From the IMG/VR virus record IMGVR_UViG_3300009529_000016, positions 1-41,908 of that record: a stretch of DNA of 41,908 nt; one strand, given 5' to 3'. Under the pieces are notes generated by a model. That model saw only the letters and a program-made list of their open reading frames with translations, did no database searches and was not told the DNA's origin. The stretch comes from a virus. Positions 348 through 41,908 of this stretch are shown piece after piece; positions within the stretch are counted from its first letter, which is position 1, and the number at the start of each line of letters is the position of its first letter. The position numbers and the translations under genes are program-made.

Positions 348-412
348 TGTACGTACACTTAAGGGTATTTGCTATGTACGTACAAACAATGATAAGGTGC
401 TATGTACGTACA
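348..412. promoter_or_regulatory. Cluster of three TGTACGTACA palindromes upstream of the RHH gene
   Basis: Perfect 10-bp palindromes lie at 348-357, 375-384 and 403-412, spaced 27 and 28 bp start to start, so they are close to helically phased. Two have extended symmetry: GTGTACGTACAC at 347-358 and TATGTACGTACATA at 401-414. The last ends 30 bp before the GTG start at 443. The same decamer recurs five times inside the gene and was not found elsewhere in the window. The likely role is binding sites for the encoded RHH protein, used for autoregulation, replication or partition; this is an inference. Confidence 0.7.
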
Positions 413-442
413 TAACCAGATTAACCAGAAAGGGGTATAAAC

Positions 443-919
443 GTGTTAAAGGTAGACGAAGCATATTTAGAGGTAGCGATTAAGAAGGCGTTTGCAGCTA
501 TGCGGATTAAAGGGCTAGTAGCAAACGATAAGTACGGCTTAAAGCTAAGACTACAAGAAGAAGCTGGAAGGCGGGGCTTCGTGAAAGGTAAACACAAGTT
601 TGTAGTTAAGGAAAAGAAAGACGGTTCTGGAACAATCAAGTATGTACGTACAAAGGGTAAAGATAGTGTACGTACAAAGCCTAAGAAGATAAAGACTAGT
701 GTACGTACAAAGAAGAAGCCTACTAAGCTTGTACGTACAAAGGTTAAGAAGGCAAAGACTGATGTACGTACAAAGGGGAAGCTTAGAACGCGGTTGGACC
801 TAAGACTACCGCCCAAGTTGATAGCCAAGCTAACCAGCTACGCAACAAAGACGGAACAGACAAAGACAAGCGTAGTGGAGTTAGCGCTAAAGGCTTACTT
901 GAAGAAGGATGAAGGGTAA
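443..919 (+). CDS. Ribbon-helix-helix DNA-binding protein with VRTK-repeat linker
   Basis: This 158-residue basic protein starts at GTG 443 behind an AAAGGGG Shine-Dalgarno sequence. The N-terminal 60 residues form an unrecognised, probably helical domain. Residues 67-112 are a Lys-rich linker with five V-R-T-K units, the VRT triplets at 68-70, 76-78, 87-89, 97-99 and 108-110. Residues 116-155 fit the CopG/Arc-type RHH fold: a strand (RLDLRLPP), helix A (KLIAKLTSYAT) and helix B (TSVVELALKAYL). Every VRT is encoded by the same codons, GTA CGT ACA, which create the palindrome TGTACGTACA that also lies three times upstream. The gene therefore seems to contain arrayed copies of its own presumed target. 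By layout it could be a replication initiator, a ParG-like partition protein or an autorepressor. The fold is fairly secure; the function is open. Confidence 0.75.
   Translation: MLKVDEAYLEVAIKKAFAAMRIKGLVANDKYGLKLRLQEEAGRRGFVKGKHKFVVKEKKDGSGTIKYVRTKGKDSVRTKPKKIKTSVRTKKKPTKLVRTKVKKAKTDVRTKGKLRTRLDLRLPPKLIAKLTSYATKTEQTKTSVVELALKAYLKKDEG
643..772 (+). repeat. Intragenic array of five TGTACGTACA palindromes
   Basis: Perfect copies lie at 643-652, 667-676, 700-709, 730-739 and 763-772, with start-to-start spacing of 24, 33, 30 and 33 bp. All are in the same reading frame and all are followed by AAG or AA, giving VRTK. The surrounding coding strand is strongly purine-rich. The layout resembles iterons embedded in the coding region of their own binding protein, as in the lambda O gene; equivalence to an origin is inference. 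Confidence 0.85.
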
Positions 920-2008: not shown

Positions 2009-2202
2009 TATCGCTTTAGCCTTTCGTCGGGTTGTGGTTTACCGGTAACTACAATATGAAGTGGAAACATAGGGACCAAAGTAAGGTAAAGGTGTAGATC
2101 GTTTCTAGTGCGAAGCCCCGCAACCATCCTAAGCTTACGCGTCCAGTAAGCGCCTACCCAAAGGTCCCTAGGTTCAAATTCGATATTAAAGCTAAACGGC
2201 AT
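2008..2202 (-). CDS. Small conserved-type phage protein, unknown function
   Basis: A 64-residue protein beginning MPFSFNIEFEPRDLWVGAYW. The ATG at 2202 is preferred over a longer frame reaching 2316, because a GGGGA Shine-Dalgarno sequence lies just upstream of it and the longer form would read through the repeat hairpin at 2219-2245 and overlap the upstream gene. The F-x-P-R-D-L-W-V-G start followed by a hydrophobic segment ending PLHIVV resembles small phage hypothetical proteins I have seen, but their role is not known to me. Confidence 0.7.
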   Translation of the reverse strand: MPFSFNIEFEPRDLWVGAYWTRKLRMVAGLRTRNDLHLYLTLVPMFPLHIVVTGKPQPDERLKR

Positions 2203-2218
2203 TATGGATCCCCATTTT

Positions 2219-2245
2219 CCCGGTTTGCATAACTCGCAAACCGGG
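2219..2245. repeat. 27-bp hairpin repeat, copy 2
   Basis: Perfect 10-bp arms CCCGGTTTGC (2219-2228) and GCAAACCGGG (2236-2245) enclose the loop ATAACTC. The element lies in the 53-bp gap between two leftward genes, 16 nt ahead of the ATG at 2202 on the transcribed strand. Confidence 0.9.
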
Positions 2246-2255
2246 AACCGCCTAC

Positions 2256-2663
2256 TTATAGTAGTAGCTGGCGTTTGATATCTTCGATCGCTTTGTCTTG
2301 CTCCGCTAACTTCCATTCTACTAGCTCTAGCGTACTGATCAACGTAGCAAGTTTAGGGATCACAATATCCCTAAGCGCCGTACCCGTATCGTCTGATAGT
2401 TGGTTTAACTCGTTAGACGTTTCACCCTTAAGGTTAACTACGTCCCCTTCCAAATCCCCTACCCTTTCTTCTAGGCTAGTATTGTCCCCCTTGATTATCC
2501 CCGCCATAGTGATCACGTTATCGATCCTACCGTGAAGATCTCGTAGCTCTTCTACGATAACAGTAAGCGGGGCTGAAATGTACGTAGGCAATTGTTCAAA
2601 TTCTTTAAGGTAGTGTTTAGCTTCTAGTGCTTCTTCCATTTTCTTACATATACGTCTAACCAT
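2256..2663 (-). CDS. Coiled-coil protein of unknown function
   Basis: A 135-residue protein, largely helical, with heptad-like hydrophobic spacing through residues 45-130 and the segment LHGRIDNVI near residues 43-51. A similar stretch (VHQRIENVI) occurs in the coiled coil of the protein at 2899-3684, so the two may share an ancestor or assemble together. Its start overlaps the end of the upstream gene by 8 nt. No family is recognised. Confidence 0.7.
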   Translation of the reverse strand: MVRRICKKMEEALEAKHYLKEFEQLPTYISAPLTVIVEELRDLHGRIDNVITMAGIIKGDNTSLEERVGDLEGDVVNLKGETSNELNQLSDDTGTALRDIVIPKLATLISTLELVEWKLAEQDKAIEDIKRQLLL

Positions 2664-2853
2664 CGGTTTCCCCCGTAGCTATTAAACGTAAGCCTTCACG
2701 TTTGATTGTTGCTCTTTCCCGCATACGGATCATTTTCTTGTAGGACTTAGAACGCTTTTTGTCTTTGTGCTTATCTTCTAGCATTGCGATCTTTTCCTGC
2801 TTTGGTACGTCCCCTGGCATATCGTGAAATTTGATTCTTGGTTTCATAGTCAT
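2656..2853 (-). CDS. Small, highly basic protein of unknown function
   Basis: A 65-residue protein dominated by Lys and Arg in its central part (residues 27-53), which suggests nucleic-acid or acidic-partner binding. It overlaps the following gene by 8 nt and lies 45 bp downstream of the gene at 2899-3684. No family is recognised. Confidence 0.6.
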   Translation of the reverse strand: MTMKPRIKFHDMPGDVPKQEKIAMLEDKHKDKKRSKSYKKMIRMRERATIKREGLRLIATGETDG

Positions 2854-2898
2854 TGATCCTAGTAAATGGTTACCCCGATTCTATGCTTAAGCCCCGAC

Positions 2899-3684
2899 CT
2901 ATGGGCCGCATGAAGAATCAAGATCGGGATCTGTTCCCTGATCTAGTGGCTCTTCTACTTTGGTTGCTACTACATAAAGCCGGTTACACTTCCTACAAAC
3001 GAATAGGGCTAGATCGTTAGCTTCACCGTTTAGCCGGTAGTAGTTCTTTGGAACTGTCTTACCGGCTTTCTTGTCTTCGTCTGATACGTACCCATCCCAA
3101 TGTCTAAGCGACATCCAACCGCCGTTACCGCCGTATGGCTTTCCGTCACTATCGCAAGTAATGATCAACGGTTCGTGCTTACAGCCTATATCAGAGTTAA
3201 GGCTAAGATCGTTTACGGTACCGATCACGTTTTCGATCCTTTGGTGTACCCTTGCGATCTCTTCATGGATCAGCCTAACGCTTTCACTTAGCTCCGATAC
3301 TTCGTCGTCTAGGTCTATACCCTGTAGTTGCATATCTACTGCTTTTACCTGCTTCTGTAGGTCTTCTATTTCTTTTGTTAGCCTACCTATAGCCTCATGG
3401 ATTATCCGCCTACTCTCTTCCAGATCTACTAGGCGATCCTTTATGTCTTCAACGTCTGTAGGAAGTGAAGCTTTCAAAGCTTCAGCAAGATCGGTAACGC
3501 TGTTATGGGTACGTTGGGCGTATGTTTCGCTATAGGGTTTGTCTTTTTCTACGTCTAGATCTTTTGCTATGTATTCATCGTTAGCGTTTCCTTGAACGTC
3601 TTTATACTGTTCCGGTATTAGCTCGCTTAGAAGTTGTAGGGCTTCTTGGGCTGTTTCTGCTTCTACTGTTACTTTAACCGCCAT
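2899..3684 (-). CDS. Coiled-coil protein with C-terminal zinc-ribbon-like domain
   Basis: A 261-residue protein. Residues 1-70 are acidic and mixed. Residues 76-160 are a long predicted coiled coil that includes the segment VHQRIENVI. Residues 165-245 carry four Cys (C168, C177, C230 and C233, the last two as CRKC) and a conserved-looking Trp/Gly stretch, consistent with a zinc ribbon. No signal peptide or membrane segment is visible. It starts inside the end of the preceding RHH-like gene (11-nt overlap). Function is unknown. Confidence 0.75.
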   Translation of the reverse strand: MAVKVTVEAETAQEALQLLSELIPEQYKDVQGNANDEYIAKDLDVEKDKPYSETYAQRTHNSVTDLAEALKASLPTDVEDIKDRLVDLEESRRIIHEAIGRLTKEIEDLQKQVKAVDMQLQGIDLDDEVSELSESVRLIHEEIARVHQRIENVIGTVNDLSLNSDIGCKHEPLIITCDSDGKPYGGNGGWMSLRHWDGYVSDEDKKAGKTVPKNYYRLNGEANDLALFVCRKCNRLYVVATKVEEPLDQGTDPDLDSSCGP

Positions 3685-3883
3685 GGCTTACGCTCCGTTT
3701 CTTTTCTTGTATACGACAGAATAAACAATCTAGCTCGTATCGGTTTAGACCTTCTAGGATCCATTGTTGTAAGAGGTAGGTGCGATCACCGGATTTAGGC
3801 GCTATCACGTCTAGCCTTTGTATTACGGTAGAAGGTAGGCTTACACAAACCGCTTTACCATAAACGATCGGTGTTTTAGCCAT
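3674..3883 (-). CDS. Small RHH-like protein with CxxC motif
   Basis: A 69-residue protein. Residues 11-49 fit a ribbon-helix-helix fold: a strand (AVCVSLPS), helix A (TVIQRLDVIAPKS) and helix B (RTYLLQQWILEGLNRY). A C-L-F-C motif follows at 53-56. It is one of three RHH candidates in the first 5.6 kb and could regulate this operon. It overlaps both neighbours by a few bases. The fold call rests on pattern only. Confidence 0.6.
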   Translation of the reverse strand: MAKTPIVYGKAVCVSLPSTVIQRLDVIAPKSGDRTYLLQQWILEGLNRYELDCLFCRIQEKKRSVSHGG

Positions 3884-4409
3884 TGGTATCCCTGTTAATT
3901 ACGTCTTCTATATCTTCGCCTTCGGCTACTTCGTAGATGCCGCTTAACGCTCGTAACTGTTCCGTATCTAGGATCTGTTGCTTTTCTACTTGTGTTATCC
4001 GCCTATTCAATTCACGTAAGGCGCTTATAACGTCTTCTTGCCTTCTAGCTAGTCTACGAATGAACCCCCTTAGTATGTTAGGATCTCTGAACGCGGCGGG
4101 TTGCCTACCTTCAACGTCTAAGAAGATCGATACGTCTTCTCTACCTTTGGTCTTAGGGGTAAGTCTACCTTTGGTCTTAGGGGTAATGGTGATCGGTTCC
4201 AGCGGGTTTACTTCAGGCTTACAGTGACACTTGCTAACATTGTCGTAAGCCCTAGCCCAACTAGCAGAAGCGATACCGTGACAATCGGGGCAAAAGGTAG
4301 TTAGACAATTAGGGCAATGATGATCGATCACTTCACCTAGCCTACAGCAAGGGCAAGAACCTTCACATGCGCAAGGTTTGCTTACTTCTCTATCTGCTCC
4401 CGTTGTCAT
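3876..4409 (-). CDS. Cys-rich zinc-binding-like protein with helical tail
   Basis: A 177-residue protein. The N-terminal 63 residues contain eleven Cys and several His, arranged as multiple CxC and CxxC pairs, which suggests two or more zinc sites. A short linker contains TPKTKGR twice in tandem, the product of a 24-bp DNA duplication at 4140-4187. The C-terminal 90 residues are helical, with a likely coiled coil at 110-150. No family is recognised. Confidence 0.7.
   Translation of the reverse strand: MTTGADREVSKPCACEGSCPCCRLGEVIDHHCPNCLTTFCPDCHGIASASWARAYDNVSKCHCKPEVNPLEPITITPKTKGRLTPKTKGREDVSIFLDVEGRQPAAFRDPNILRGFIRRLARRQEDVISALRELNRRITQVEKQQILDTEQLRALSGIYEVAEGEDIEDVINRDTNG
4140..4187. repeat. 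24-bp tandem duplication inside a coding region
   Basis: Two adjacent copies (4140-4163 and 4164-4187) are identical except for the last base. They duplicate eight codons in frame and give the repeated TPKTKGR segment of the Cys-rich protein. The near-identity suggests a recent event. Confidence 0.9.
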
Positions 4410-5968: not shown

Positions 5969-6626
5969 CACGGTAAGGCTAGACGCAGCTACGGGAATCA
6001 ATGTTAGGGATCATTGGTTCGGTAAGTATAGGATCGCTGCTAGCGCTAACTCACGGCTTGATCGTTATCTGCTAGAGCTAAAGCGGGATTTCCCTAGTCT
6101 TGTATTTGAGACTAAGGATCGCTGGTATTGGAAGCTGATCTATTACTTCCTGCTTATCGTTTCATTCGGTAAGCAAAACGAATTCCTTAGCGCCTATACC
6201 ACTACGATTGGTATGCTGATCGCCTTTAGCGCTAAGGTTCATACTTCGATCGTTGAAGGTAAGCCGGGGGGCGATTGGGAAGATCGGCTATGGGCTTTAC
6301 TTCGGCATGAAGGTAAGCACCTAGAAGACTTCAAGCGCTTCGGTGTGTTCCTTATGTTTGTGATCTATATCTTCATCTTCTTCCCGGTTGGGCTTGCTTG
6401 GGGAAGGGCTTGGATAGAGCGCAAGGGCTACATAGAATCACTTAGGGCTAAGTTTGTTTGCGATCAACATTGGGCCGAAGATCCACGTTACCGCGTTTGG
6501 TGGATCGAACGGTTTACTGGATCGTCTTATATCTGGCAATGGCCGTTCAAGAAGCAGGTAGCTAAGTGGTTTGATACGGAGCTACAAGCATTAAGGGAAG
6601 CAGATGATAAAAGACAAACCGCCTAG
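5943..6626 (+). CDS. Membrane-anchored protein with HExxH metallopeptidase motif
   Basis: A 227-residue protein starting at ATG 5943, which has GGAG upstream. Residues 121-126 (R-H-E-G-K-H) contain an HExxH zinc-peptidase motif (H122, E123, H126). A strong hydrophobic segment at 133-153 follows, then WIERKGYIES, which offers E159 or E165 as a third ligand, as in gluzincin-type enzymes. A weaker hydrophobic stretch lies at 65-75. The protein is rich in Trp and aromatic residues. It sits just before the terminase genes. The fold and activity are not certain, because HExxH can occur by chance; the membrane segment and the E-rich motif after it support the assignment moderately. Confidence 0.5.
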   Translation: MPKDASGDNTVRLDAATGINVRDHWFGKYRIAASANSRLDRYLLELKRDFPSLVFETKDRWYWKLIYYFLLIVSFGKQNEFLSAYTTTIGMLIAFSAKVHTSIVEGKPGGDWEDRLWALLRHEGKHLEDFKRFGVFLMFVIYIFIFFPVGLAWGRAWIERKGYIESLRAKFVCDQHWAEDPRYRVWWIERFTGSSYIWQWPFKKQVAKWFDTELQALREADDKRQTA

Positions 6627-7080
6627 ACAGGTAGTAACGCCAAAGGATCAAACTATAGAGCGTTTAGAGAAGAAGCAGGATCAGGAACAAAGGCTTAAGC
6701 GGGTTAAAGATATGCTCGCTTCCCATGAAACAGAAGACGAAGACGTTACTATAGAGGAAACTAATAAGGCGCTAGTAGAAGCAGGGTTTAACGCTGAAGA
6801 GATCAGAAACTTCGCTAGGTTTTTAGTAGCGCAAGAAACGGAGCCTTTCGAGCTACCGGCTAGATCGCCAGAACATTACAAAGTGATTAGGGACGAAGTA
6901 AGAGAGTTAACGGTAAAGCTGTTAGGGGCGGGGGCCAATCGTTGGACAATCAAGCAAGCGTTAGAAGGTCGAATAGAAGAGCTAACTACACAACAACATA
7001 TTTTGAAGAATAGCCCCCGGTTTGCGGATCTCGCAAACCGGGAAGGTAGCTTAGATAGTGACGAAGAAGAAACAGACTAA
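6604..7080 (+). CDS. Candidate small terminase subunit
   Basis: A 158-residue, charged, helical protein with an AAGGGAAG ribosome binding site. It overlaps the preceding gene by 23 nt and the large terminase by 23 nt. The central segment (TIEETNKALVEAGFNAEEIRNFARFL, about residues 49-74) could be a helix-turn-helix. The small-terminase role is inferred from position and size, not from a recognised domain. Its last 20 codons are formed partly by the repeat hairpin at 7016-7042, which encodes SPRFADLANREG, so the C-terminus may be a recent addition. Confidence 0.45.
   Translation: MIKDKPPRQVVTPKDQTIERLEKKQDQEQRLKRVKDMLASHETEDEDVTIEETNKALVEAGFNAEEIRNFARFLVAQETEPFELPARSPEHYKVIRDEVRELTVKLLGAGANRWTIKQALEGRIEELTTQQHILKNSPRFADLANREGSLDSDEEETD
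7016..7042. repeat. 27-bp hairpin repeat, copy 3
   Basis: Perfect arms CCCGGTTTGC (7016-7025) and GCAAACCGGG (7033-7042) enclose the loop GGATCTC. This copy lies inside the end of the candidate small-terminase gene and ends 15 nt before the GTG start of the large terminase. The arm's GGG plus the next four bases form GGGAAGG. Confidence 0.9.
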
Positions 7081-8491
7081 ACCTAAACGTAGGACTAACT
7101 ATACCTACGCTAAGGAATACGAATCGGCTAAAGCTACTCGCCATAATATGATCCGCGATCTAGTGATCAATCAAAGGCGCTTTGATATCTTATCTGAATA
7201 CGTCTTAGGTTATGATCCGCAGCCCTTCCATTTGGAAATGATGGATTTCCAAGAAAGTAACCAAGAAGGAATGATCCTAGGCTGGCGCGGGGCCGCTAAA
7301 ACAACCTACCTTACTATCACAACGTGTATAGGTGAGATCCTTTGCGATCCCAATGTGCGGATCCTTATTTGTTCAGACGCAGCGGAGCAAGCTAAAACGT
7401 TCTTAAGGGCGGTTAAGCTGCACTTCGAACGTAACGAAGAGCTACGGGAGATCTTCGGAGACTACTGCTTAAACGCACCTAAATGGGCCGATAACGAAAT
7501 TATCGTTAACAAGCGTTCTAGCTTTGCAGCGGAAGCAACGATCACAACGATCGGCTACGGTTCAACCTTACCAGGAAGACACTTTGATCTTACCCTTTGT
7601 GATGACTTGATCACTAAGGACAATGCACAAACAGAAGGGCAACGTAAGAAGGTTCACGATTGGTTTTATGATACGTTGTTACCTTGTGTACAAAGCCCTA
7701 ACGGTAGGCTTTACGTTATTGGTACCCGCTGGCATGAAGAAGATCTATACGGTTGGTTACAAGACGAAGACTACGCAGACGCGTTTATTATCTTCAGCGT
7801 ACTAGACGAAGACGATCGATCCGTATGGGAAGACGTGTTCCCTACGGCTAGGATGCATAGAATTAGGAAAGGTAACTTACGCGCCTTTGAACTTCAGTAT
7901 ATGTGCAAGCCCGGTGAAAACTTGGGCGGTATCTTCACACCGGAACACTTCCGCTACTATGAACATTTACCCGCTGAAGTTTTTAAATGGCAAGGGGTAG
8001 ACCTTGCGATCGGGCAAGGGTCACAACATGATCACTTTGCACATTGTACAATAGGCGTTCACAAGACTAGCCGGGATATCTACTTGATCGATTACCGCAA
8101 GACTAAGATTACCTTCCCGCGTCAAGTGTCGTTTGTAGCCAACCGTTGGGAAGAGCATAGGGACGTTATACGAGTAGTGATCGAAAGCAATTCTTACCAG
8201 TTAGCGCTAAAGCAACAAATGAGAGAAAGCCATCCAGAAGTTCCAGTAATGGGACATCCAACGATCAAAGACAAGGTAGCTAGGGCGGAACAGTTGTCTT
8301 ACTATTTCACTGATCGCCCCTTGAATGTTAGGCGGGGGCACCACGAATTTATCCGGCTAATGTGCGGCTTCCCGTCTAAGAAAGGTTCTAAAGACGTTAT
8401 GGATGCATTAGAGATCGCGATCGGTAGGGGGTTGAAAGGGGCTAGAAAGACGCGTACTAGAAACCTAGGTTTAATAGGCGGAAGGCGGTAG
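7058..8491 (+). CDS. terL: Phage terminase large subunit (ATPase and nuclease)
   Basis: A 477-residue DNA-packaging motor protein that translocates DNA through the portal and cuts it. Walker A is G75-W-R-G-A-A-K-T-T83, Walker B is L178-T-L-C-D-D183 and the coupling motif is IGTRWHEEDL (221-230). The C-terminal RNase H-like nuclease shows D315 in GVDLA, E376 in VVIES and D449 in KDVMDAL as candidate metal ligands. Length is normal for the family. It starts with GTG 7058, 23 nt inside the previous gene. Its distance from the head genes is the usual one. Confidence 0.95.
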   Translation: MTKKKQTKPKRRTNYTYAKEYESAKATRHNMIRDLVINQRRFDILSEYVLGYDPQPFHLEMMDFQESNQEGMILGWRGAAKTTYLTITTCIGEILCDPNVRILICSDAAEQAKTFLRAVKLHFERNEELREIFGDYCLNAPKWADNEIIVNKRSSFAAEATITTIGYGSTLPGRHFDLTLCDDLITKDNAQTEGQRKKVHDWFYDTLLPCVQSPNGRLYVIGTRWHEEDLYGWLQDEDYADAFIIFSVLDEDDRSVWEDVFPTARMHRIRKGNLRAFELQYMCKPGENLGGIFTPEHFRYYEHLPAEVFKWQGVDLAIGQGSQHDHFAHCTIGVHKTSRDIYLIDYRKTKITFPRQVSFVANRWEEHRDVIRVVIESNSYQLALKQQMRESHPEVPVMGHPTIKDKVARAEQLSYYFTDRPLNVRRGHHEFIRLMCGFPSKKGSKDVMDALEIAIGRGLKGARKTRTRNLGLIGGRR

Positions 8492-11530: not shown

Positions 11531-12556
11531 ATGGCAAAGCAGCTACTAAAGCTTTCCGACCTTTCAACGGAAGAGCTAGCCCACATTGAAGACGAAGTAG
11601 AAGCTACGCTAGCTACTATCTTCAAGATCAACACAAGACGGGCTAGCCTTTCGTTTGAAAGGCGTATGTCTGAAGCTGTTAACCGGGCTTGGAAGAAGGC
11701 GGCTAAGAACGCCATTACCGTTAGCTTGAAATTGCTAAAGGTAGCTAAGAAGCGGTTTACCGCTAAATCTATCAAAGCATTTCTAGCTAGGATAGGCGTA
11801 GCGCTAAAATCCCCGCTTACTTCAGCACAAGTAGACATATTAGGTAAGCGCCTTGAATCGATCTACAAGATAGGGAAGAAGCTAGCGGCTAAAGAAGCTA
11901 AGTTTAGTTTCAGCTTTAGAGCTAAAGACGCTAGGGCTATTAAGGCGCTAGGTAAGCAGCAAGTTTTCTGGATCGGTGATTTCTATAGTACGCAGCTATC
12001 AGAAAGGATCGCCGCTGTAACGGATGACATTTTATTACAGCGGGGGTTAGGCCCTAAAGAAGCCGGTAAGGAACTACAAAGGGTTCTAAGCCGTGAATTT
12101 GGGATCACCAAAGGGGGCAAGACAAGGGCCGCGCTACAAGTACCCGCCCGTTATGCTGGCAACCCCGAACATTACTTTAGACAAGTTGCGGCTAACGTAG
12201 CCCATAGGGCTAGAACGTTTGGCAAGATAACCGCCTTTCAAGAAGCGGGGATCACGCGTTACCGTTTGAATAATCCGATGGATTCTAGGACTGGTAGAGT
12301 ATGTCAAGTAATGCATGGCCAAGAATTTGATGTAGCAACAGGTGTTAAGCAAATGGATAAGATTCTTAATGCCACTTCACCTAAGCAGATCAAAACGCTT
12401 GCACCTTGGTTAAGCGGGGACGAAATAGAAGCAACGGTAGGTAACGCTAAGCCTGGAACTACGCAAGCAACGGAAGCGCTTACCGACGCTAACCAAATCC
12501 TCCCCCCATTTCACCCGCTCTGTAGGACAGAGCCGATCGTTGTATTTAAGAGCTAA
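11531..12556 (+). CDS. Mu F-like (SPP1 gp7-type) minor head protein
   Basis: A 341-residue protein. The N-terminal two thirds are Lys/Ala-rich helices. The C-terminal third carries the family signature: NPMDSRTGRVCQVMHGQEF (about 251-269) and PPFHPLCRTEPIVVF near the end. Proteins of this family sit next to the portal and act in head assembly or DNA ejection. No strong Shine-Dalgarno sequence is visible. The last 12 codons have a diverged copy at the end of the following endonuclease gene, whose start overlaps this stop as TAATG. Confidence 0.85.
   Translation: MAKQLLKLSDLSTEELAHIEDEVEATLATIFKINTRRASLSFERRMSEAVNRAWKKAAKNAITVSLKLLKVAKKRFTAKSIKAFLARIGVALKSPLTSAQVDILGKRLESIYKIGKKLAAKEAKFSFSFRAKDARAIKALGKQQVFWIGDFYSTQLSERIAAVTDDILLQRGLGPKEAGKELQRVLSREFGITKGGKTRAALQVPARYAGNPEHYFRQVAANVAHRARTFGKITAFQEAGITRYRLNNPMDSRTGRVCQVMHGQEFDVATGVKQMDKILNATSPKQIKTLAPWLSGDEIEATVGNAKPGTTQATEALTDANQILPPFHPLCRTEPIVVFKS
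12518..12556 (+). repeat. 3'-end duplication, copy A (Mu F-like gene end)
   Basis: The last 13 codons of the Mu F-like gene match 13387-13425 at 32 of 39 bases, and 11 of 12 amino acids are identical (LCRTEPIVVFK then S or R). Nearly all differences are at third codon positions, apart from the final sense codon and the stop. The copies flank the coding region of the endonuclease. Confidence 0.9.
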
Positions 12557-13425
12557 TGGGCCTAAGCGAAGAACATAAGCGTAAGATAGCCAAAGCGGTT
12601 AGTGCGGCTTGGACACCCGAAAGACGTAAAGCGCAAGCTGAGATTACTAGGCGCGTACATACTGGTAAGAAACGTTCTAAGGAAACACGCGATCGGTTGT
12701 CAGAAGCTAATAGACGCCGAACCCCGGAACAAAAGAAGGCGGCTACTAGTAAGGCAAACGAGAAAGTAAGAGCGCTAGCGGCTAGCGGCTTGTGGCATCC
12801 TGCCAAGGGCAAAAGACACCATAACAACACTAAGGATAAATCCGCAGCAATGCGGTTAGCAGCGGAAGCTAGACGCGGTTTGAATAATCCTGTCTATAAG
12901 GTAATAGACGGTCAAACCCATGCCGATCGTTGTAGGCTTACGCGTAAGCGTAATGGAACTACGATGAAGGGTAGGGCTAACCCCGCTTATGGGAAGGTCT
13001 ACGGATCTGGTATTAGGCGTTGTTGGCGGTTCTTGCCTAGCGGTTTTTTGGTTAGCTACCGATCAACTTGGGAATCGGCTTTTGCTGGATACCTTGAAGC
13101 GTTAGGTGTCGCGTATAACTACGAACCCAAGACTTTCTATTTTGACGGCTTCACGTATACCCCTGATTTCTATTTACCGGAGATCGACCTTTGGATCGAA
13201 GTGAAGGGGTATCTACGGGAAGACGACGAACAGAAGGTAGAAGCCTTACGGTCTAACGGGTATAACCTGCTTCTTATCGACGCTAACGCTTTTAAGCTAT
13301 TGGAGCTAGCAGCCTTCAAAGCTACAGCGATCGACATTGATAGTAGGCTTAGATCTAATGTAAGGCGGATCAGAAGAACAGATACCCTTTGTAGGACAGA
13401 ACCGATCGTAGTATTCAAAAGGTGA
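12556..13425 (+). CDS. Mobile (homing-type) endonuclease with NUMOD-like repeats and PD-(D/E)xK domain
   Basis: A 289-residue protein. Residues 1-110 are basic and contain repeated short helical motifs like the NUMOD3 DNA-binding modules of homing endonucleases (LSEEHKRKIAKA, SKETRDRLSEANRR and NTKDKSAAMRLAAEA). Residues 168-245 form a nuclease domain with candidate catalytic E173, D204 (YTPDFYLPE), E215 and K217 (IEVKGY), resembling the Vsr-like/EDxHD group. The last 12 residues (278-289) copy the C-terminus of the upstream Mu F-like protein. It starts by TAATG coupling. It is a selfish insert in the head operon and has no obvious virion role. Confidence 0.85.
   Translation: MGLSEEHKRKIAKAVSAAWTPERRKAQAEITRRVHTGKKRSKETRDRLSEANRRRTPEQKKAATSKANEKVRALAASGLWHPAKGKRHHNNTKDKSAAMRLAAEARRGLNNPVYKVIDGQTHADRCRLTRKRNGTTMKGRANPAYGKVYGSGIRRCWRFLPSGFLVSYRSTWESAFAGYLEALGVAYNYEPKTFYFDGFTYTPDFYLPEIDLWIEVKGYLREDDEQKVEALRSNGYNLLLIDANAFKLLELAAFKATAIDIDSRLRSNVRRIRRTDTLCRTEPIVVFKR
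13387..13425 (+). repeat. 3'-end duplication, copy B (endonuclease gene end)
   Basis: The last 13 codons of the endonuclease gene re-encode the C-terminus of the Mu F-like protein in the same reading frame, with 32 of 39 bases matching 12518-12556. This may be the original 3' end of the invaded gene, now fused to the endonuclease. Confidence 0.9.
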
Positions 13426-17967: not shown

Positions 17968-17994
17968 CCCGGTTTGCGAAGTCCGCAAACCGGG
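17968..17994. repeat. 27-bp hairpin repeat, copy 4
   Basis: Perfect arms CCCGGTTTGC (17968-17977) and GCAAACCGGG (17985-17994) enclose the loop GAAGTCC, as in copy 5. The arm continues as GGGAAGG, which is the only Shine-Dalgarno-like sequence for the ATG at 18007, 12 nt after the arm. Folding of the hairpin would affect access to it. Confidence 0.9.
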
Positions 17995-40915: not shown

Positions 40916-40942
40916 CCCGGTTTGCGAACTATGCAAACCGGG
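40916..40942. repeat. 27-bp hairpin repeat, copy 6
   Basis: Perfect arms CCCGGTTTGC (40916-40925) and GCAAACCGGG (40933-40942) enclose the loop GAACTAT. It fills most of the 43-bp gap after the gpJ-like gene and ends 13 nt before the ATG at 40956. The continuation GGGAAAGGA serves as that gene's ribosome binding site. Confidence 0.9.
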
Positions 40943-40955
40943 AAAGGATCAGACA

Positions 40956-41908
40956 ATGGCGCTTAAGTTTATGAATGGTATTCAAGTAGGGCTAGAATCC
41001 AGCGGGGGGCTTGGGTATGGTTGGGGTATGCAGCATATAAAGCGGTTAATCTATCTTTGGTTGAAGAATGTAGTAGGCTGGACGCAAGTAGACATTAAGG
41101 GTAACGGATTTTGGGGTAGTGCGGGTAATTGGGATAATCCACTATCGGCACTAGTAACCAATGGAGCAACCGACGCAACCGATCCGACTAAGCTAACTTC
41201 TGCTACGTCTACTTGGGTTACTGATACCGTGACAACCGGGGATCTAGCACTAATAATCGGTTTTGCTGATCCTGCTAGAAACGGCTTCTATACTGTACAG
41301 AAGACACCGGGGGAAGGCGAGATCAGGATCCAACCTTGGAACGGTGTACATACAGACGGGTTACCGCTTGGGGAAATCGGCTTGTCTGTAGTGATTCATA
41401 GACTGCATACTAGCGCGTTAATGCCTATTGATGATGACGCGTGGATCCTTGAAGGTACGGGGGTAGGCGGTACCTTCCACCTTCGTTGTGTTAATGATCG
41501 TACTATCAATTACGGCGGGGGTTGGGAATTTGATATTAGCCCCTGGCCAGATTGGTTGGTAGGTACCCACGTTTGGGATACACCTTCCCGTCATACTTCG
41601 TTACCTAATAAAGCTTGGAATTCGGGGGCTGATATTTGTTGGGTATACGCTGTAGCCGATCTAGACTTCGTATTCGTTTGGTTTAGATCTTATGGTTGGA
41701 CTTTTAACGCTGTTGAAACTGGCCTTTTGTATGCTGGCGATATTGACGCGTACCATCCGGGCTTTGATCCTAGGCCAGTAGTTATAGCGCTAGGTCAAAA
41801 TACACTTTGGAATGAACCAAACGATCTAAACGAATTTTCCCGCATGATCGGGGCAGACGATCTAACGGAAGTAACGGCTATCCATATGGGGGCTAGGTTC
41901 GCTAGGGA
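40956..41908 (+). CDS. Baseplate-region protein, runs off the window end (partial)
   Basis: An open frame from ATG 40956 to the last base, at least 317 residues, without a stop. AAAGGA lies 8 nt upstream. The sequence is Trp- and Gly-rich with many strands and no membrane segment. It begins MALKFMNGIQVGLESSGGLG and includes ADPARNGFYTVQKTPGEGEI. Its place after gpJ suggests a gpI-like, fibre or further baseplate protein. No family is recognised. Confidence 0.7.
   Translation, partial: MALKFMNGIQVGLESSGGLGYGWGMQHIKRLIYLWLKNVVGWTQVDIKGNGFWGSAGNWDNPLSALVTNGATDATDPTKLTSATSTWVTDTVTTGDLALIIGFADPARNGFYTVQKTPGEGEIRIQPWNGVHTDGLPLGEIGLSVVIHRLHTSALMPIDDDAWILEGTGVGGTFHLRCVNDRTINYGGGWEFDISPWPDWLVGTHVWDTPSRHTSLPNKAWNSGADICWVYAVADLDFVFVWFRSYGWTFNAVETGLLYAGDIDAYHPGFDPRPVVIALGQNTLWNEPNDLNEFSRMIGADDLTEVTAIHMGARFAR

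Follow-up and report, generated by a model that had tools for sequence, protein, structure and literature searches.

An RHH (ribbon-helix-helix) protein gene in the 41,908-base phage contig analysed here (the window) is preceded by three and contains five copies of the perfect palindrome TGTACGTACA (10 letters, its own reverse complement). The reading we favour, with a probability of roughly 0.6, is that the gene encodes an Arc/CopG-like RHH autoregulator whose operators reach into its own coding sequence. Judged from sequence, binding of TGTACGTACA by the encoded protein is highly probable, and the case that the DNA sequence of the genic copies is itself under selection appears well supported. 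The relevant features of the window are as follows.

348..357, no strand: palindrome copy 1, upstream of the gene; exact TGTACGTACA match
375..384, no strand: palindrome copy 2, upstream of the gene; exact TGTACGTACA match
403..412, no strand: palindrome copy 3, upstream, 30 bp 5' of the start codon; exact TGTACGTACA match
429..435, + strand: likely ribosome-binding site AAAGGGG; sequence inspection
443..919, + strand: RHH protein gene, 158 aa, GTG start; ORF and translation, PHROG 582
443..640, + strand: N-terminal domain, residues 1-66, no known family; Pfam/PHROG search and structure model
641..778, + strand: Lys-rich linker with five VRTK motifs; translation
643..652, no strand: palindrome copy 4, genic, read T then GTA CGT ACA; exact match and frame
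667..676, no strand: palindrome copy 5, genic; exact match and frame
700..709, no strand: palindrome copy 6, genic; exact match and frame
730..739, no strand: palindrome copy 7, genic; exact match and frame
763..772, no strand: palindrome copy 8, genic; exact match and frame
779..916, + strand: C-terminal RHH domain, residues 113-158; Pfam/PHROG searches
791..805, + strand: presumed DNA-reading strand R117-L-D-L-R121; alignment of array-associated RHH proteins

An exact search of the whole contig confined the eight copies to 348-412 and 643-772, which confirmed the original prediction of three copies before the gene, five inside it and no other full copy. Base composition predicts ~0.04 exact copies per contig, compared with the 8 observed, and the reversed control pattern had zero exact copies in the contig. 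TGTACGTACA is the most frequent palindromic 10-mer of the window, and its nearest match outside the array, at 41345 of the contig, carries one mismatch. When two mismatches were allowed, 18 TGTACGTACA-like matches were found in the contig against 15.3 expected; as this is chance level, the signal lies only in the exact copies. Copies are spaced 27 and 28 bp apart upstream and 24, 33, 30 and 33 bp apart in the gene, and their helix phasing is not uniform.

The best family match of the encoded protein was PHROG 582 ('Arc-like repressor', E = 5e-5), with PHROG 7325 and 876 at ~1e-3 and a Pfam RHH_1 match (E = 0.017) under the Pfam cut-off. On the PHROG 582 match, the Pfam match being sub-threshold, we assign the protein to the RHH (Arc/CopG) superfamily. 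Helices 124-137 and 141-156 were modelled with a confidence of ~90 in a structure model that is poor overall (pTM 0.33) and of low confidence across much of the linker (641-778); the N-terminal domain was modelled, at low confidence, as helix-helix-strand-strand. The strand of the RHH domain appears as a helix in this monomer model; the strand pair needs a dimer. In an alignment of ten array-associated RHH proteins, both Arg residues of R117-L-D-L-R121 are invariant. The sole relative of the gene among the viral contigs searched was a 100% identical fragment from the same phage. Zero relatives of the protein were found among annotated phages and zero in genome contigs, and a TerL search returned no further close relative. 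Plasmids yielded no convincing relative; weak RHH matches there came from small enterobacterial plasmids, in which the matched genes do not carry the palindrome. The source contig has genes for TerL, portal, sheath and tape measure and thus belongs to a tailed phage; the contig is incomplete, has no end repeats and gave no integrase match. An endonuclease/resolvase-like ORF (12556-13425; PHROG 9019, E = 1e-17) lies within its head gene cluster.

The five genic copies share one frame, and each reads V-R-T (GTA CGT ACA) followed by an AAG Lys codon, so that the prediction of a common frame, identical codons and a following Lys held for 5/5 copies. The residue before VRT varies (Y, S, S, L, D; codons TAT, AGT, AGT, CTT, GAT), with T always as third base. 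The array accounts for each of the five CGT codons in the gene, and 0/7 of the gene's other Arg codons are CGT. Given the codon usage of the window, five identical VRT codings would arise by chance with a probability of ~2e-9, or ~2e-11 when the preceding T is included, figures that are weakened by tandem duplication. Recent duplication is not enough as an explanation, since the spacers have diverged and the 10-mers are identical. The constant GTA CGT ACA, the varied preceding residue with its constant T and the restriction of CGT to the array therefore give good support to selection at the DNA level.

Codon use in a pair of analogous genes also supports the original prediction that the DNA sequence itself is selected. 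Two phage RHH genes from loci L034 and L101, 46% identical to each other, have three GTACGTAC sites inside each, read as VRT; among their identically encoded residues, the same codon was used in 8/9 of the VRT residues vs 12/35 elsewhere (Fisher p = 0.0045). These genes resemble the window gene in their R-x-E-x-R strand (R-x-D-x-R in the window) and in the VRT reading of the sites. They differ from it in having the sites within the RHH domain, a C-terminal Cys cluster and a location near terminase, and they show no detectable homology to it beyond the RHH domain. GTA and CGT are likewise scarce outside the array in other genes with internal arrays: in L104 and L112, Val is encoded by GTA in 1/24 cases outside the array vs 8/8 inside. 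In L114, three GGTACGTACC copies occur, each in a different frame.

The palindrome recurs beside genes of the same kind in other viruses. A search of IMG/VR for close TGTACGTACA pairs returned 63 loci, and the reversed palindrome, used as control, returned 12. An RHH-like ORF lay within ~110 bp of the sites in 44/63 TGTACGTACA loci (own phage counted) vs 0/12 controls, a count that is partly circular because the search profile was seeded from array-adjacent ORFs. When the profile excluded the lineage under test, the ORF beside the array was still the top match in 12/12 loci from 9 non-actinobacterial lineages; the match for the window's own phage was too weak to count (2.4 bits, tied), and the large actinobacterial group, not reliably recovered by this profile, was assigned by inspection. 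For most array-associated proteins the RHH assignment lies under Pfam cut-offs. An R-x-[D/E/N]-x-R strand is common to twelve non-actinobacterial lineages (window included, one by inspection), L035 being an exception:

RLDLR: window
RIDLR: L036
RLNLR: L015
RFELR: L013/L029
RFEMR: L018/L056, L032, L038, L055
RLELR or RFELR: L034/L101
RCEFR: L046, by inspection
RLEIR: L054
RLELR: L058

Two or three palindromes 5' of a small RHH gene is the commonest layout, and several loci have them overlapping the promoter or start region (flanking a -10-like TATAAT in L013, adjoining the ATG in L054). L015 has seven copies directly 5' of its RHH gene, spaced 22, 21, 22, 33, 22 and 53 bp apart, ~whole helical turns, a regularity that the window array does not have. 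Because TGTACGTACA recurs beside RHH-like genes of many unrelated phages, it is very probably the target of such an RHH protein, in line with what the original prediction had presumed of the encoded protein. One short palindrome tied to a recognisable R-x-[D/E/N]-x-R strand across many unrelated phage regulators would amount to a testable recognition rule. The parts of the literature retrieved for TGTACGTACA describe no RHH system; one match concerns AraR of B. subtilis, which belongs to the GntR-type regulators. A search for GTACGTAC together with ribbon-helix-helix found no paper. In cellular genomes, three-copy arrays are in part actinobacterial RHH operators and in part unrelated tandem repeats. 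An Acidovorax contig (L088, 2927-3895) has twelve TGTACGTACA copies in ~1 kb, and no RHH-like gene was found there. Tandem arrays containing GTACGTAC, with 21-, 22- or 42-bp spacing, were seen in Tannerella, Spirochaetaceae and Bacteroidales assemblies (L095, L096, L099, L100).

Operators 5' of RHH genes, the recurrent context of the palindrome, fit autoregulation, and the window shows the layout of an RHH autorepressor, with three exact palindromes 30-95 bp before the start codon. For the autoregulator, we propose that TGTACGTACA is the operator and that an RHH dimer would bind each palindrome through its R-x-D-x-R strand pair. With the three sites at -95 to -30 from the start codon occupied, the gene's own promoter would be repressed, and perhaps also a divergent gene past the contig end. 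The five genic sites would extend the nucleoprotein array, either making binding more cooperative or blocking transcription within the gene. We infer all three elements of this scheme: that the protein binds the array, that it thereby represses and what the genic sites do. A promoter-like scan of 300-440 of the window found nothing, which counts against the scheme, as does the uneven helix phasing of the copies. Five genic sites exceed the needs of simple autorepression and may do something more. Arc/CopG-type autorepressors of phages and mobile elements share with the window the small RHH protein and the palindromic operators at its own promoter; the window gene adds to this design an N-terminal domain, a Lys-rich linker and five putative operator copies within the coding sequence. 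One RHH autorepressor of this type is MobC of plasmid RA3, whose dimer autoregulates through a palindrome in its own promoter (PMC4175270); it differs in that its operator is single, imperfect and unrelated in sequence, that its gene contains no array and that it has a role in conjugation.

The original prediction had also proposed a packaging site, a phage origin or a partition centromere, none of which is supported as stated. Packaging survives best. The array would then be a pac-like recognition site within the gene that encodes its recognition protein, like P1 pac, a 161-bp site with seven hexamer repeats located in pacA (PMC10028697). We regard this as rather unlikely for the window, and as a live rival because the arrays of L034, L101, L113, L116 and L015 lie within ~2 kb of TerL. 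In L034 the RHH gene is followed by TerS and then TerL; TerL is ~1.9 kb from the array gene in L101, abuts it in L113 and is separated from it by one small gene in L116; and in L015 the RHH gene with its upstream array abuts TerL. (The L015 TerL gene, 2104-4338, 3' of the RHH gene, carries an intein-like insert.) L015, L034 and L116 are short contigs, more likely to have been catalogued if a terminase is present, so that this adjacency is biased upward. At promoter-type loci the distance to TerL is often 13-70 kb, and a general link between palindrome and terminase was rejected, the promoter-type loci being scattered.

For the window itself, a packaging site would suit the position of the contig ends: the two contigs of the phage terminate less than 100 bp apart, just to the left of the array. 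Like P1 pac in pacA, the window has short repeats (seven in P1, five genic copies here) inside the gene of the presumed recognising protein. The protein and the repeat are different ones, however, and PacA is a terminase subunit, whereas no terminase match was found for the window protein and its gene is not beside TerL. TerL (7058-8491) starts 6.1 kb from the RHH gene, beyond a cluster on the opposite strand, and 6604-7080, overlapping TerL, is the likelier small-terminase position. This distance argues against packaging.

Since GTACGTAC arrays were also found in MazE-like, Phd-like and HTH genes, RHH proteins are not the only ones to read the site, a point against the autoregulator reading; the shared core is partly due to only one palindrome having been searched for. 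The fold matches of L113 (Phd/YefM-like, E = 0.0055), L116 (MazE-like, E = 0.0085) and L104 (HTH_36, E = 0.15) are under comfortable significance, that of L114 (HTH_36, E = 0.0005) excepted. In-frame GTACGTAC arrays lie in the genes at 2814-3125 of L113 and 6316-6543 of L116, both next to terminase. As a tentative generalisation, phages might repeatedly evolve DNA-binding genes (RHH, MazE-like, Phd/YefM-like, HTH_36) with internal GTACGTAC arrays, mostly read as VRT in one frame, the gene itself being a nucleoprotein target that, often beside terminase, marks the genome for packaging; we think this doubtful. Several independent genes whose coding sequence doubles as an array of protein sites would offer a rare instance of DNA-level selection within a gene, and one that lends itself to clean tests.

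The occurrence of the same core inside genes of several folds would also suit another regulator as the binder of the palindromes or, with no role of the DNA at all, an expanded Lys-rich peptide repeat; the gene's only known relative is identical, so its codon conservation cannot be followed over time. We consider either improbable: three of the copies are non-coding, the variable codons before VRT all retain T as third base, the spacers have diverged and the sites have not, and the palindrome recurrently adjoins RHH genes.

About equally improbable is a replication origin with the protein as its initiator. The lambda O gene has origin iterons in the part that codes for the linker of its DNA-binding protein, and the window repeats, similarly iteron-like, also fall within a linker; the GTACGTAC arrays of the actinophage HTH_36-type genes L104/L112 also lie in linkers, and the L114 sites occupy three frames. 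The comparison with lambda O, drawn in the original prediction, holds as an analogy of layout and fails on the initiator: the lambda O initiator is a winged-helix protein whose DNA-binding domain is N-terminal, whereas the window protein has its RHH domain at the C-terminus and gave no Pfam or PHROG match to a replication initiator domain, its N-terminal domain being of no known family. RHH proteins are not known to act as replication initiators. Neither an initiator nor a helicase-loader nor an AT-rich unwinding element was identified, and composition skew, to which the original prediction had pointed, makes no sharp turn at the array (the contig is incomplete).

A partition centromere bound by an RHH protein of the ParG, omega or ParR type is very improbable: loci of this kind usually combine an RHH protein gene with an array of repeats at the promoter of that gene, as seen here, but the window has no AAA_31 ParA-type ATPase match (the search control works), and the contig, which is incomplete, has structural genes and no match to an integrase.

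Other repeats of the window lie apart from the array. A second palindrome, TTAGCGCTAA, is dispersed in seven copies (881, 5698, 6226, 8201, 11268, 30026, 40349). Four dispersed hairpins of the form CCCGGTTTGC...GCAAACCGGG (2219-2245, 7016-7042, 17968-17994, 40916-40942), possibly terminators or mobile repeats, have arms that also occur singly at 1051, 31253 and 33684, and a perfect 24-bp tandem duplication lies at 4140-4186.
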